Assembly (NCBI GenBank): GCA_030680175.1
Contig: JAUXWO010000051.1
Location: 62,001 to 126,000 of the forward strand
Source of the DNA: Vicinamibacterales bacterium
GTDB lineage: Bacteria > Acidobacteriota > Vicinamibacteria > Vicinamibacterales > UBA2999
Length of the DNA: 64,000 bases
Reading direction: 5' to 3'
The translations under genes were made by a program, and so were the position numbers. Shown here one piece after another: positions 4,886-45,289 of this stretch (positions within the stretch are counted from its first letter, which is position 1; each line of letters opens with the position of its first letter). The notes beneath the pieces were generated by a model, which had not been told where the DNA came from, did not search any database, and saw nothing but the letters and a program-made list of their open reading frames with translations.

Positions 4886-5458
4886 ATGTCAGACACGGCT
4901 GAACGCGACCTGATCGCGCGATGCCGGCAGGGCGAGGATGGGGCGTTTCGCGAGCTCGTCGACCAGTACAAGGGGCTGGTCTTCGCGCTGGTGGCGCGCA
5001 CGATCCGTGATCCGTCCCGCGCCGAGGATCTCGCGCAGGAGGTGTTTCTCAAGATTCACCGCGGGCTGCCGTACTTCCGCGGCGACGCGCGGCTCTCGAC
5101 GTGGATCTACCGGATCGTCGTCAACCTCTGCGCGAGCGAGCGGCCGTCGCGCGACGTGCCGCTCGACGCGGGCGACGAGGAGCGGCCGGCCTGGGAGCCG
5201 GGCGGGCCGGATCGGGCCTACGGCGATGTCGAGCTCCGGGACCGCCTGGACAAGGCCATCCGCCGCCTGCCCGCGCACTACCGCGTGCTGGTAGCCGGCC
5301 ACTACCTGCGCGGCATGAAGTACGAGGACCTGGCCGAGGCGCTCCACCTGCCGATGGGCACCGTGAAGACGCACCTGCACCGTGCCAAACGGCTCCTCCG
5401 CGAGATGCTCGAGGAACCCCGGCCCGGAAGCGAACAGCGAACAGCGAACAGCGAATGA
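4886..5458 (+). CDS. RNA polymerase ECF sigma factor (RpoE-like)
   Basis: A 190-residue sigma-70 family factor. Region 2 spans about residues 10-75 (FRELVDQYKGLVFALVARTI, DLAQEVFLKIHRGL, STWIYRIVVNLC). Region 4 spans about 118-170 (AIRRLPAHYRVLVAGHYLRG, then YEDLAEALHLPMGTVKTHLH as the HTH). The C-terminal residues SEQRTANSE are encoded by a heptanucleotide repeat array. The stop overlaps the anti-sigma start (ATGA), so the two are translationally coupled. It probably directs RNA polymerase to the paired promoters at 4720-4799. The inducing signal is unknown. Confidence 0.93.
   Translation: MSDTAERDLIARCRQGEDGAFRELVDQYKGLVFALVARTIRDPSRAEDLAQEVFLKIHRGLPYFRGDARLSTWIYRIVVNLCASERPSRDVPLDAGDEERPAWEPGGPDRAYGDVELRDRLDKAIRRLPAHYRVLVAGHYLRGMKYEDLAEALHLPMGTVKTHLHRAKRLLREMLEEPRPGSEQRTANSE
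5429..5456 (+). repeat. Heptanucleotide array (AGCGAAC)3-AGCGAAT
   Basis: Four 7-bp units, three identical and one with a final T, at the 3' end of the sigma gene. The last unit supplies the A-T of the ATGA overlap with the anti-sigma gene. Related 7-bp arrays lie at 10326, 42291 and 56672. Confidence 0.85.
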
Positions 5459-11289: not shown

Positions 11290-12537
<1,248 letters not shown>

Positions 12538-12613: not shown

Positions 12614-14992
<2,379 letters not shown>

Positions 14993-15549
14993 TTGAAGAT
15001 CACCGTCGAGTTCGTCACGAGCGCCGCCGGCCCCGAGGGCTTCCCCCGCGAGGGGCCGCCCGAGGTGGCGATGGTCGGCCGCTCCAACGTGGGCAAGTCG
15101 ACGCTCATCAACGCGCTCGTGCGCAAGAGCGTCGCGCGGACCAGCGCGGCCCCGGGCAAGACCCGTCTGGTCAACTTCTTTCGCGTGAAGGCCGAGGGCC
15201 GGCCGGAGTTCCTGCTCGTGGACCTCCCCGGCTACGGGTACGCCAGGGGCGGCGAGTCGGCTGCCCGGGAGTTCGGCGCCCTCACCGGCGCCTACTTCGC
15301 GTCGCGGGTCTCGACGGGCCGGCTCGTCGGGGCCCTGCAGCTCGTCGATGCCCGCCACCCGGGCCTCCCGAGCGATCGCCACGCGTGGGCGTGGCTGGCC
15401 GAGATTGGCGCCCCGCGCCACGTCGTGGCCACCAAGCTGGACAAGCTGACGCGCGCCGAACGCTCGCGTCTGATTCGGGAGCTCGCAACCATCCACGAGG
15501 CCCCGGCGGTGCTGGTTTCGGTACCGGCGGGCGAAGGACTGAACGAACT

Positions 15550-25098: not shown

Positions 25099-25204
25099 AG
25101 GGGTCTGGCACCGTGACATCGAAAACAGCGCAGTTCCTGCACTCCCTCCCCAAGAGGGGGACGCAGGAACTGCGCCCTTTTCGATGTCACGGTGCCAGAC
25201 CCCT
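25099..25204. repeat. Long inverted repeat, 42-bp arms with 22-bp loop
   Basis: Arms 25099-25140 and 25163-25204 match at 40 of 42 positions. The loop itself contains CTCCCC facing GGGGGA. The right arm includes the first two bases of the minus-strand stop codon of the SDR gene. An 18-bp imperfect direct repeat (ACCCGGGCAGGGGTCT) lies at 25073-25106. It looks like a REP/MITE-type element; no transposase is in the window. Confidence 0.9.
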
Positions 25205-41561: not shown

Positions 41562-41659
41562 GTGGAGTGCCTCGACGGCAGAGGTGCTACCAGCGCCTCT
41601 GCTCAGACGCGATGCTGCGGGCCGGGCGGCCCGCAAGTAGATCGTCGACGACACTCCAC
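41562..41659. other. 98-nt multi-branched inverted-repeat element between convergent genes
   Basis: The outer stem is GTGGAGTG (41562-41569) with CACTCCAC (41652-41659), continuing as TCGACG with CGTCGA. Inside are two hairpins: GCAGAGG/CCTCTGC (41578-41602) and TGCGGGCC/GGCCCGCA (41616-41635, loop GGGC). It sits between the CPBP stop and the SurA-like stop, and its right end includes the first base of that stop. It is a candidate bidirectional terminator, structured RNA or remnant of a mobile repeat. Confidence 0.6.
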
Positions 41660-44600
41660 TAGGGGCGCTGGTAGAGCGCCACGATCTCGGTGCGACGGCG
41701 CAGCCCCTCGACCCAGTCGGCGATCAGCTCGCGCCGGCGTTCGCCGGCCAGCCGCGCCCGCACGAGCGGCGCAATCTCCTCGAAGGGCAGGCCGCTCGAC
41801 TCGAACTCCTCGCGATGCGCGCTGTAGTAGGCGCCGATGTCCTGATCGGTGGGCACGCCCGCCGCGGCAAACCGCTGCTCCAGGTAACTCGCGATCCGGA
41901 GATCGTCGCGCACCCAGGCGCGCAGCCGCGCGGGCGTGAAGCCCCCGGTCTCGAGCGCGCGCGTCAGGGCGAGCGGCGTCTCGAACCGGTCGCGTACCTC
42001 GGCGAGGCGCGCCTCGATCGCCGCCTCGGACGGCTCGCCCGGCGCGTAGCGCTCCACCTCGCGCAGCATCAGCGTGCGCTCGATCAGCCGCTCGGTCCCG
42101 CGTGCCACGCGGTCCTCGGCGTCCGGCAGGTCGACGAGTCCGAGCGCGGTGACCGCGCGCACGTCCGCCAGGGTGATGATCTGCCCGCCGACGAGCGCCA
42201 GCGTCCGCTCGATGACGACCGGCCCCTGTGCGGACAGGGCCACCCCGAGCAGCAGCGCGCCCACGGTCACGGCGATTTGCGTGTGCATCCGCTTCGCTCT
42301 TCGCTCTTCGCTCTTCGTCATTCGTCTCTCGCTCTTCGTGAGGGGTCTGGCCGAGGGAGATGTGGAATACCACGCGGCGTTCCAGCCCATCACCCACCGT
42401 GCGCCGATCGAGCTTGAAGCCGAGATCGAAGCGCAGCGGTCCGAGCGGCGACCGGTAGCGCAGCCCGACGCCCGCCGCGCCGCGCAGGTCGGCCAGCGCG
42501 ATGTCCCCCGTGCGCTGGAACACGTTGCCGGCGTCGACGAACGTGACGAGGCCCAGGCCCTTCCAGTACGGCGCGCGCACTTCCAGGTTCAGGACGAGAA
42601 GGCCCGCACCGCCGGAGGGGAACCCCTGGGCGTTCAGCGTGGACTCGCTCCCGAGCCGGTCGAGCGGGAACCCGCGCACCGTCGCATCGCCGCCTGCGAA
42701 GAAGCGCTGGCTCGCGGGCAGGTCCTGCACCACGTCCACCTCCGGCTGCCCGTCGGGGCCGAGGATCGGGTTGCCGTTCGTGTCCTCGCGCACCACCGTT
42801 CGCTCGAATCCCCGTGCGAGGCCGACGCGCGCGCCGCCGGCCACCACGAAGCGCGACCCGGGAACGCGACGGTACACGAACCCCTGCAGGAAGCTCTTCG
42901 CGTACCCGACCTCCGACCCGAGCGACCGCACCGCCAACTCGCCGTCCGCGCCGATCACCGTGCCCCGCTGCGGGTCGAGCACGTCGTCGCGCGAGTCGCG
43001 CAGGATCGACCCCGCCACCGTGGACAGCCGCACCTGCGGGAAGATCCGGTCGATCAGCAGCTGGTCCTCCACCAGGATCTTCGTGTCGAACAGGCGTGTC
43101 TGGTCGTAGGCGTAGCGCCCGCTCGCCGTGATCTGCGGCGTCAGCCGCCTGGCGTACTCGGCGCGCATCCCGCGCCGGTTGAAGTTGAAGCTGGATCGAA
43201 TCGCCTGCTCGACAAACGCCGTCACCTGCGCGTCGCCCGTCGTGCCGAACGCGCGGGGCTCGCGGAAGGTGCCGACGACCCGGTACTCGTTGAACCCGTA
43301 CCCGCCCTCGTCGTCCGGGTCCGTCGCGTCGACGCCGGGATCGCGCGGCCGGAGGCTGACGCGCGTGAAGAGGTTCACCGCGCGGTTCTTGCCCCACAGG
43401 TTGCGGCGGCCGATCTCGAAGAAGCCGCGCGGCGCGACGCTGATCCGCTCGCGTGCCACGCCGCTTTCGCGGTCGGGCCGCAGGAGCTGATCGACCTCGA
43501 GCCCGCCGCCGTACGAGATCGTCGTCGCCGGCGCTTCCTCGACCTCGATGAGCAGGTCACGATTGGCGCTCGAGCCGTGCGGCAGCTCCGTAATGCGCAC
43601 CCGCCGGAACAGCCCGAGCGCGCTCAGCCGCTGCTGGCTCTCGAGCAGGGCGTCGTAGCCCAGCGGATCCCCGGGCCCCAGCGTGAGCTCGCGGCGGATG
43701 GTCCCGGCGCTCGTCCGCCGGTTGCCGGTCACGATGATGTGATCGACGATGGTGCGCGGGCCTTCGCGAATCAGGTACCGGAGGGCCACGGCGCCGCCCC
43801 CCTCCGCCACCACCGGGTCCACCTCGATGACCGCGGACTGGAATCCCTCGTTGCGATAGGCGCGTTCGATGGCATCCCGATCCGCCAGGAGCCGCGGCCG
43901 GTAGAACGGCCGCCCCGTGTCGAGACCCACCAGCGGCCGGAGCCGCGCGTCCGGCAGCGCACCGGCCCCCTCGAAGGTGACCCCGCTCACGATCGTCTGC
44001 GGCCCCTCCTCGATCTCGTAGGTCACCGCGACCGGCCGGAACGCCCCGCCCCCCTCCCCGCGGAGCGGACGGACCTGGATGTCGGGCGTGACGGTGGCGC
44101 GGGTGAAGCCCCGCACGCGGTAGAGCTCGGTGAGGGCGGCCGCGACCGTGCTGACACGGGCATCCACGAACGGCTCGCCCGGCTCGAGCACGAGCAGCGG
44201 AGCGAGCTCCTCGCGTGTCAGCGCGCCGTAGCCGGTCACGTCGAGGTCGTCCAGCCGATGCAGGGGGCCGCGGGCCACGATGAACGTCAGCACCAGCTCG
44301 CCATCGCGCTCGTCGCGCGTGTAGGGCGCCTCCGCGCCCCGGTACCCCTCGTTCCGCAGGTACTGCTCGATGCCGCGGCTGGCATCCTCGAGCAGATCCT
44401 CGTCCACCGACCGCTCGCGGCGGATCGGCACGAGGGCGTCCTGGCGGACGCCGGACAGCGGATCACCCGCGAACACGACACGCACGCGGGGCCCGGGATC
44501 CACCAGCAGGGTCAGCGCCACGCCGCGGCCATCCTCGCTCTCGACCACGCGATGCGAGACGTCGGCCTCGTAGTGTCCGCTGGCGCGCAGTTCCTCTTCG

Positions 44601-45289
44601 TGGGCGGCCAGGCGCCTCTCGATCGCCTGCCGGTCGTAGGGGCGGCCGGGTTCGATGGCGAGCCGGACCAGTAACTGCGCCGGTGGGATGGTGCCCGTCC
44701 CCGACACCCTGGCCGCTCGGATCATCGCCTGCGGGCCCGGCTCGATCGTGAACACCGCCGTCACGTCCTCGGGGGCGCGCCCCGGCTCGAGGACCGGCGT
44801 GATCACGGCGGCCGGGTAGCCGCGCTCCCGGTAGAGCGCCGCCAGCGTCTGCGCCATCTCGCCGAGCCGCGCGGCCGAGGGCGCGTCGCCGTGCCGTTCA
44901 TCGAGCGCCGTGCGCAGGTCGCTGGCGCGCAGCTGCAGGGTCCCCCGCAGATCGATCTTCCGGATCCGGCGCACCGGCACCAGCACGTAGCGCAGCGCCA
45001 CGCCCTCGGCGCCGCCGCTGGCCACGACCCGCACGTCCTCGAACCGGCCGAGGCCCACCAGGTGATCGATCGTCTCCCGAATCGCCCGCATCGTCACCGG
45101 CTGGCCGATGCGCGTCTCCACGAGGGCCAGCACGTCAGGCTCGGTGAAGGGACGGCCGGCCACCTCGACCTCGACATCCGAGAGCGGCCGGCCGAGAAAC
45201 GCGGCCGGATCCGCCTGCGCCGCCGCCGGCACGGCGCCGGCCAGCCAGGCCGCGACGGCACACGCGAGGACACACGCGCGGGCCCGCAT
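41603..45289 (-). CDS. Omp85/BamA-like outer-membrane assembly protein with anomalous C-terminal read-through
   Basis: A 1228-codon frame. It has a signal peptide (residues 1-25), then several POTRA domains (repeats of GxPYDRxAIERR and VxxGPxxxVxxVxFxG type, about 27-610). The beta-barrel has the Omp85 motif RGFPLD (in DATVRGFPLD) and ends near residue 982 with VVFHISLGQTP. Normal members stop within a residue or two of this strand, usually after Phe. Here the frame continues for about 246 Arg/Ala-rich codons, reading a heptamer array and then the whole downstream gene in another frame, to a stop at 41603. The functional protein probably ends near 42344. The cause is likely loss of a stop by repeat insertion. 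Start overlaps the TamB-like stop (TGATG). Confidence 0.85.
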   Translation of the reverse strand: MRARACVLACAVAAWLAGAVPAAAQADPAAFLGRPLSDVEVEVAGRPFTEPDVLALVETRIGQPVTMRAIRETIDHLVGLGRFEDVRVVASGGAEGVALRYVLVPVRRIRKIDLRGTLQLRASDLRTALDERHGDAPSAARLGEMAQTLAALYRERGYPAAVITPVLEPGRAPEDVTAVFTIEPGPQAMIRAARVSGTGTIPPAQLLVRLAIEPGRPYDRQAIERRLAAHEEELRASGHYEADVSHRVVESEDGRGVALTLLVDPGPRVRVVFAGDPLSGVRQDALVPIRRERSVDEDLLEDASRGIEQYLRNEGYRGAEAPYTRDERDGELVLTFIVARGPLHRLDDLDVTGYGALTREELAPLLVLEPGEPFVDARVSTVAAALTELYRVRGFTRATVTPDIQVRPLRGEGGGAFRPVAVTYEIEEGPQTIVSGVTFEGAGALPDARLRPLVGLDTGRPFYRPRLLADRDAIERAYRNEGFQSAVIEVDPVVAEGGGAVALRYLIREGPRTIVDHIIVTGNRRTSAGTIRRELTLGPGDPLGYDALLESQQRLSALGLFRRVRITELPHGSSANRDLLIEVEEAPATTISYGGGLEVDQLLRPDRESGVARERISVAPRGFFEIGRRNLWGKNRAVNLFTRVSLRPRDPGVDATDPDDEGGYGFNEYRVVGTFREPRAFGTTGDAQVTAFVEQAIRSSFNFNRRGMRAEYARRLTPQITASGRYAYDQTRLFDTKILVEDQLLIDRIFPQVRLSTVAGSILRDSRDDVLDPQRGTVIGADGELAVRSLGSEVGYAKSFLQGFVYRRVPGSRFVVAGGARVGLARGFERTVVREDTNGNPILGPDGQPEVDVVQDLPASQRFFAGGDATVRGFPLDRLGSESTLNAQGFPSGGAGLLVLNLEVRAPYWKGLGLVTFVDAGNVFQRTGDIALADLRGAAGVGLRYRSPLGPLRFDLGFKLDRRTVGDGLERRVVFHISLGQTPHEERETNDEERRAKSEADAHANRRDRGRAAARGGPVRTGAGRHRADAGARRRADHHPGGRARGHRARTRRPAGRRGPRGTRDRAADRAHADAARGGALRAGRAVRGGDRGAPRRGTRPVRDAARPDARARDRGLHARAAARLGARRSPDRELPGAAVCRGGRAHRSGHRRLLQRASRGVRVERPALRGDCAARAGAAGRRTPARADRRLGRGAAPSHRDRGALPAPLVECRRRSTCGPPGPQHRV
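41659..42288 (-). CDS. SurA N-terminal-domain-like periplasmic protein
   Basis: A 209-residue secreted protein with a signal peptide (1-20, ending LSAQ). An all-helical region (about 24-185) follows the SurA/PpiC N-domain pattern (VVIERTLALVGGQIITLADVRA, then RLIERTLMLREVERY). It has no parvulin PPIase domain, so it is shorter than SurA (~430). It probably acts as a chaperone for the Omp85/TamB cluster in which it is encoded. ATG 42288 was chosen; an in-frame ATG 13 codons upstream begins inside the heptamer array. The whole gene lies within the read-through frame of the upstream Omp85 gene. Confidence 0.75.
   Translation of the reverse strand: MHTQIAVTVGALLLGVALSAQGPVVIERTLALVGGQIITLADVRAVTALGLVDLPDAEDRVARGTERLIERTLMLREVERYAPGEPSEAAIEARLAEVRDRFETPLALTRALETGGFTPARLRAWVRDDLRIASYLEQRFAAAGVPTDQDIGAYYSAHREEFESSGLPFEEIAPLVRARLAGERRRELIADWVEGLRRRTEIVALYQRP
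42291..42338 (-). repeat. Heptanucleotide array, about seven 7-bp units (CTCTTCG)
   Basis: CTCTTCG at 42297, 42304, 42311 and 42332, with variants TCATTCG and TCTCTCG between and a truncated unit at 42291. On the minus strand the core is AGCGAAG. It sits exactly at the junction of the Omp85 barrel end and the SurA-like start, and is followed by AGGGGTCTGG, shared with the long inverted repeat at 25099. Confidence 0.9.

Follow-up and report, generated by a model that had tools for sequence, protein, structure and literature searches.

Among the described systems closest to the locus discussed here are the REP and REPIN sequences, other palindromic repeats, and the Rickettsia palindromic elements, which are inserted in open reading frames. 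REPs are surveyed in PMC3733652. Tandem heptanucleotides are also among them: TAACTGA arrays occur in many copies in the intergenic regions of marine Beggiatoaceae and cyanobacteria, mostly a few nucleotides upstream of start codons and in one orientation, and 13 of them overlap the stop of the upstream gene (PMC4679880). In Geobacter metallireducens, the relevant passages of PMC2700814 present heptanucleotides (GGGACCG, MTYCTGA) as multi-copy elements of four to five units lying between or within genes. Our literature search found no report of heptad arrays in Acidobacteria. As to the protein affected here, a paper on neisserial Omp85, citing earlier work, describes the last phenylalanine as crucial for the integration of bacterial β-barrel proteins (PMC3596097).

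The window (the whole stretch of 64,000 nucleotides that was analysed) carries on its minus strand an open reading frame (45289..41603) of 1228 amino acids without the stop, consisting of 981 native bamA codons (42347..45289, minus strand), which end in ...VVFHISLGQ with Gln 981 at 42349-42347, and 247 more. The predicted product consists of five POTRA repeats (Pfam POTRA, E 2e-51, 5 stretches) followed by an Omp85 barrel, matched by Pfam at residues 663-982 and over positions 14-324 of the 325 in the profile; the NCBIfam BamA model TIGR03303 gives 283.3 bits (E 4e-84) against a curated cut-off of 297.15. GC by codon position in the native part is 0.77/0.50/0.93 (GC3 0.925). In its POTRA repeats and in a barrel complete to the last strand it resembles the BamA/Omp85 proteins with a C-terminal aromatic β-signal; unlike them, it has neither the terminal Phe nor the stop and carries an out-of-frame tail. 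We regard bamA as an outer-membrane assembly gene that is probably essential, and it is the only BamA-type copy in the genome. A spare copy was rejected, the other Omp85 match (contig C142) being a TamB-TamA-like fusion. In the latter, a single frame of about 2270 amino acids encodes a TamB-like domain together with a TamA-like barrel and has a normal end (GIGQVF*); the matching frames in relatives are about as long.

The end of bamA was compared with relatives found by searching 58 genomes at the family or order level, none of them of the window's genus. The end column reads G[Q/E][A/V]F* in 28 of the 28 homologues with a complete end, and a scan of GTDB contigs from Acidobacteriota to Proteobacteria, in a set that partly overlaps the former, gave an F* end in 80 of 80. 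The earlier note had placed the end of the barrel at VVFHISLGQTP, where family members normally terminate, and rightly so: the homologues stop there, two codons past the last native codon of the window. The window instead reads LGQ-TP-HEERE..., so that an aromatic residue directly before a stop is missing, and both the terminal Phe and the stop are absent, unlike in every homologue checked. The Phe is missing in all frames, and no single base change restores the conserved end. The same note had called for a comparison of the junction in related genomes and had named homologues with the same long tail as what would speak against its reading; the relatives keep the conserved F* end, and a tail like that of the window was seen in none of about 100 bamA relatives compared. 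Most of the closest relatives have a TGATG stop/start overlap between bamA and the next gene.

In the window, 58 nt separate the Gln codon from the downstream start codon (ATG, 42288). They consist of ACCCCTCAC (42338..42346, minus strand), where relatives have the conserved [A/T]F-stop codons (GCCTTCTGA), and of seven 7-nt units of the (AGCGAAN)n family (42289..42337, minus strand): GAAGAGC GAGAGAC GAATGAC GAAGAGC GAAGAGC GAAGAGC GAAGCGG. As was claimed before, the bamA frame crosses the heptamer array (42337..42289) and then the entire SurA-like gene in another frame. The ACCCCTCAC segment does not belong to the heptads, and the array alone does not explain it; the junction also has a CCCC run. 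As read from the sequence, GAAGAGC and GAACAGC units are free of stops whatever the frame; with the commoner AGCGAAT units, every frame meets a TAG within 21 nt. The frame translations place an ATGA (42318..42321, minus strand) within the heptad GAATGAC, its TGA lying one frame off bamA and overlapping an ATG from which the SurA-like gene might start further upstream (MTKSEERRAKRMHTQ...). Nine of 27 relatives also have 7-nt periodic arrays between bamA and the next gene, with quite different units and always after an intact stop; these arrays (in L021, L023, L024, L028, L030 and L036-L039), whose units differ, seem to arise repeatedly at this place.

The array belongs to a genome-wide family. 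The AGCGAANAGCGAANAGCGAA pattern has 159 matches in this genome and 0 for the reversed control pattern; it is absent from 57 of the 58 relatives, and the remaining one has 2. The 7-nt tandem unit thus recurs at many loci of one genome, as heptanucleotide arrays do. The surroundings of 33 arrays were read, with genes called by a rule based on GC by codon position that makes single assignments approximate: 14 of the 33 have an ATG at -10 to +20 nt relative to their sense end, compared with 3 start codons on the antisense side, and these arrays accordingly lie near start codons in one orientation. Nine others face a convergent gene, whose stop is 0-8 nt away from the sense end. The sense end of the 33 arrays is sharply set at a start codon or a convergent stop, and the other end is not. 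A second array within the window (5429..5455, plus strand, AGCGAAC units) lies at the junction of a sigma factor and the next gene; it adds SEQRTANSE to the C-terminus of the sigma factor and sits directly ahead of an ATGA stop/start overlap, which is retained; in four relatives the stop comes 1-4 codons past the corresponding point. The family is like the TAACTGA arrays in its 7-nt tandem units, many copies, nearness to start codons and single orientation. Its unit sequence differs, and whereas TAACTGA provides stops in all three frames, the GAAGAGC units provide none and leave the upstream gene open. The Geobacter metallireducens elements are likewise multi-copy heptads with another unit sequence, and the removal of a stop is not among the features reported in those passages of the source.

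The explanation we favour, and consider reasonably probable, is that growth of the array into the bamA/SurA-like junction removed the end of bamA, the tail being an unselected by-product. A lineage-specific (AGCGAAN)n array would have grown into the junction until, as is now the case, it abutted the start codon of the SurA-like gene. The ancestral stop and start probably overlapped (TTC-TGATG), and an array ending at the ATG of such an overlap would therefore have destroyed the TGA of bamA: insertion up to the ATG, together with a loss of about 8 nt, would have removed both the terminal Phe codon and the stop. No new stop in the bamA frame would come from the array, since GAAGAGC-type units carry none, and the frame would run antiphase through the SurA-like gene until it met a stop by chance at 41603. 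The open frame, the lost conserved end, the array with its genome-wide family and the lack of a coding signature in the tail are observed; from them we infer the sequence of events, a TGATG overlap in the ancestor and any translation of the tail. The comparison covered genomes from outside the window's genus, in which neither fixation nor the ancestral sequence can be read. The loss of a conserved terminal Phe from a presumed essential BamA would be expected to be costly, so that a sequence error or a rescue is possible. The earlier proposal that insertion of a repeat had removed the stop thus stands in part: replacement of the end by the heptad array, which is the clearly repeat-derived part, is well supported, the role given to the inverted repeat is possible but weak at this site, and what was called an "insertion" could just as well have been a deletion leaving a stub behind.

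The gene downstream (P0002, 41659..42288, minus strand, 209 amino acids) is a neighbour of bamA that is conserved in relatives. It has a GC by codon position of 0.79/0.49/0.94 (GC3 0.938), no significant domain match of its own and a weak match to NifM. Two of nine aligned orthologues match Rotamase_2 of the PPIC rotamase family (best E 3e-7) and the orthologues have no relative in PDB; the SurA/PpiC-like assignment is to be taken with caution. The read-through tail (41603..42346, minus strand) comprises 247 codons and a stop and is antiphase to this gene. The 246 codons counted earlier had the long open frame right, and the count is 247 after the Gln or 245 after "TP". Its GC at the three codon positions is 0.907/0.757/0.506, an anti-coding pattern compared with the GC3 of about 0.93 in native bamA, and it is composed of 27% Arg and 20% Ala. 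On this shadow-like GC pattern, selection in the tail was rejected. In 4 of 27 relatives the corresponding frame, antiphase to the SurA-like gene, has no stop for at least 200 codons; once the stop of bamA has gone, an open tail of this length is therefore unsurprising. The tail is the shadow of the downstream gene and, most likely, an unselected and non-adaptive by-product.

The inverted repeat to which the junction had been linked is a REP-like element with 42-nt arms at 25099..25204, present in about 30 copies in the genome. The decamer AGGGGTCTGG (42341..42350, plus strand, of which 42347-42350 is native bamA) does occur, as had been said, both at the junction and at both ends of this repeat. 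It is the outer end of an inverted repeat of about 100 nt, of which this genome has 60 exact 20-nt ends and the 58 relatives none. Genome-wide there are 71 copies against 4 of the reversed pattern, and chance as the full explanation of these copies was rejected on that count. It is possible that such a repeat once lay between bamA and the array and that a GCCAG-GCCAG deletion left an ACCCCT stub, and tentatively we give this reading, which is compatible with growth of the array, rather less than an even chance. The outer 10 nt of the repeat match the breakpoint exactly, with 5 nt of microhomology. Moreover, a gene with a conserved C-terminal region on contig C32 (about 14944-15199; L185/L216) continues straight into a 19-nt end of the repeat, and its frame then meets no stop for 187 codons, where four relatives stop within 2-19 codons; it lost its stop at an unambiguous repeat end, so that the route exists in this genome and the link at bamA becomes more plausible, in favour of the earlier proposal. 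Against it, four of the ten bases (CCAG) belong to native codons, and up to seven do so if Thr, which LGQTF* homologues share, is also native, leaving just 3-6 of the 10 non-native to bamA. At another locus (L143) a native coding sequence, LRQTP, yields the same decamer. As nearly all genomic copies are complete inverted repeats, the decamer at bamA proves little: copies without the rest of the repeat number about 6, near the 4 of the reversed control, and the bamA site carries the outer decamer alone, with no two-arm hairpin of about 100 nt at 42341. The link at bamA is therefore possible but weak. The elements resemble REP/REPIN and Rickettsia elements as short multi-copy inverted repeats at gene boundaries and sometimes within frames; unlike them, the element here is of about 100 nt with AGGGGTCTGGCACCGTGACA ends, and bamA has at most a possible stub of 6-10 nt.

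A different reading accepts that the end of bamA was replaced and places a one-base indel in the assembly, or a ribosomal frameshift, at the junction, so that the real stop would be the TGA at 42320-42318 in GAATGAC. The tail would then have about ten residues, and the stop would overlap, as ATGA, an extended start of the SurA-like gene. The neighbouring frame does end at this TGA, the array at 5429 uses exactly such a GAATGA stop/start overlap, and the CCCC run lies in the junction; yet the surrounding long genes are intact, and the terminal Phe is absent whatever the frame. Furthermore, of the 19 places in the window where coding switches frame on the same strand, the bamA junction has a read-through of 252 codons and all others at most 27, with no other long read-through; altogether we hold this reading to be unlikely but not negligible. 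Less probable again is an assembly or library chimera, in which bamA and the SurA-like gene would have been misjoined or an intervening repeat skipped. The genome is indeed a draft of 143 contigs and several copies of the inverted repeat lie at contig ends, but the two genes adjoin in relatives, the 5 nt common to the repeat at the joint are not enough overlap for an assembler to have made the join, and at the inverted repeat contigs break rather than join. We consider it very improbable that the extended BamA is made and has a function of its own, for instance as a protein with an additional periplasmic domain at its C-terminus: 247 codons are open and barrels with domains beyond the last strand exist (OmpA type), whereas the composition of the tail is that of another gene's shadow, its like is found in no homologue, and chance opens the same frame in relatives. 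Just as little weight can be given to the idea that the stop-less array is a frame-setting hinge between bamA and a periplasmic chaperone gene, its length tuning outer-membrane assembly; if true, gain or loss of a single 7-nt unit would switch between a BamA-chaperone fusion, a long antiphase tail and an early stop.

Provided that the assembled bases are correct, growth of the array into the junction, as we favour, would mean that a presumably essential gene has lost the last residue of its β-signal and its stop to neutral repeats, and the locus would test how strictly BamA needs its terminal Phe. It would also offer a concrete route by which heptad arrays abutting start codons break overlapping stop/start pairs, and a warning that long read-through frames in GC-rich genomes from metagenomes may be repeat scars and not new proteins. 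Elsewhere in the window, same-strand frame switches at 12535, 57891, 1850 and 22628 lead to a next gene without a clear nearby start, and are possible frameshifts or wrong calls.
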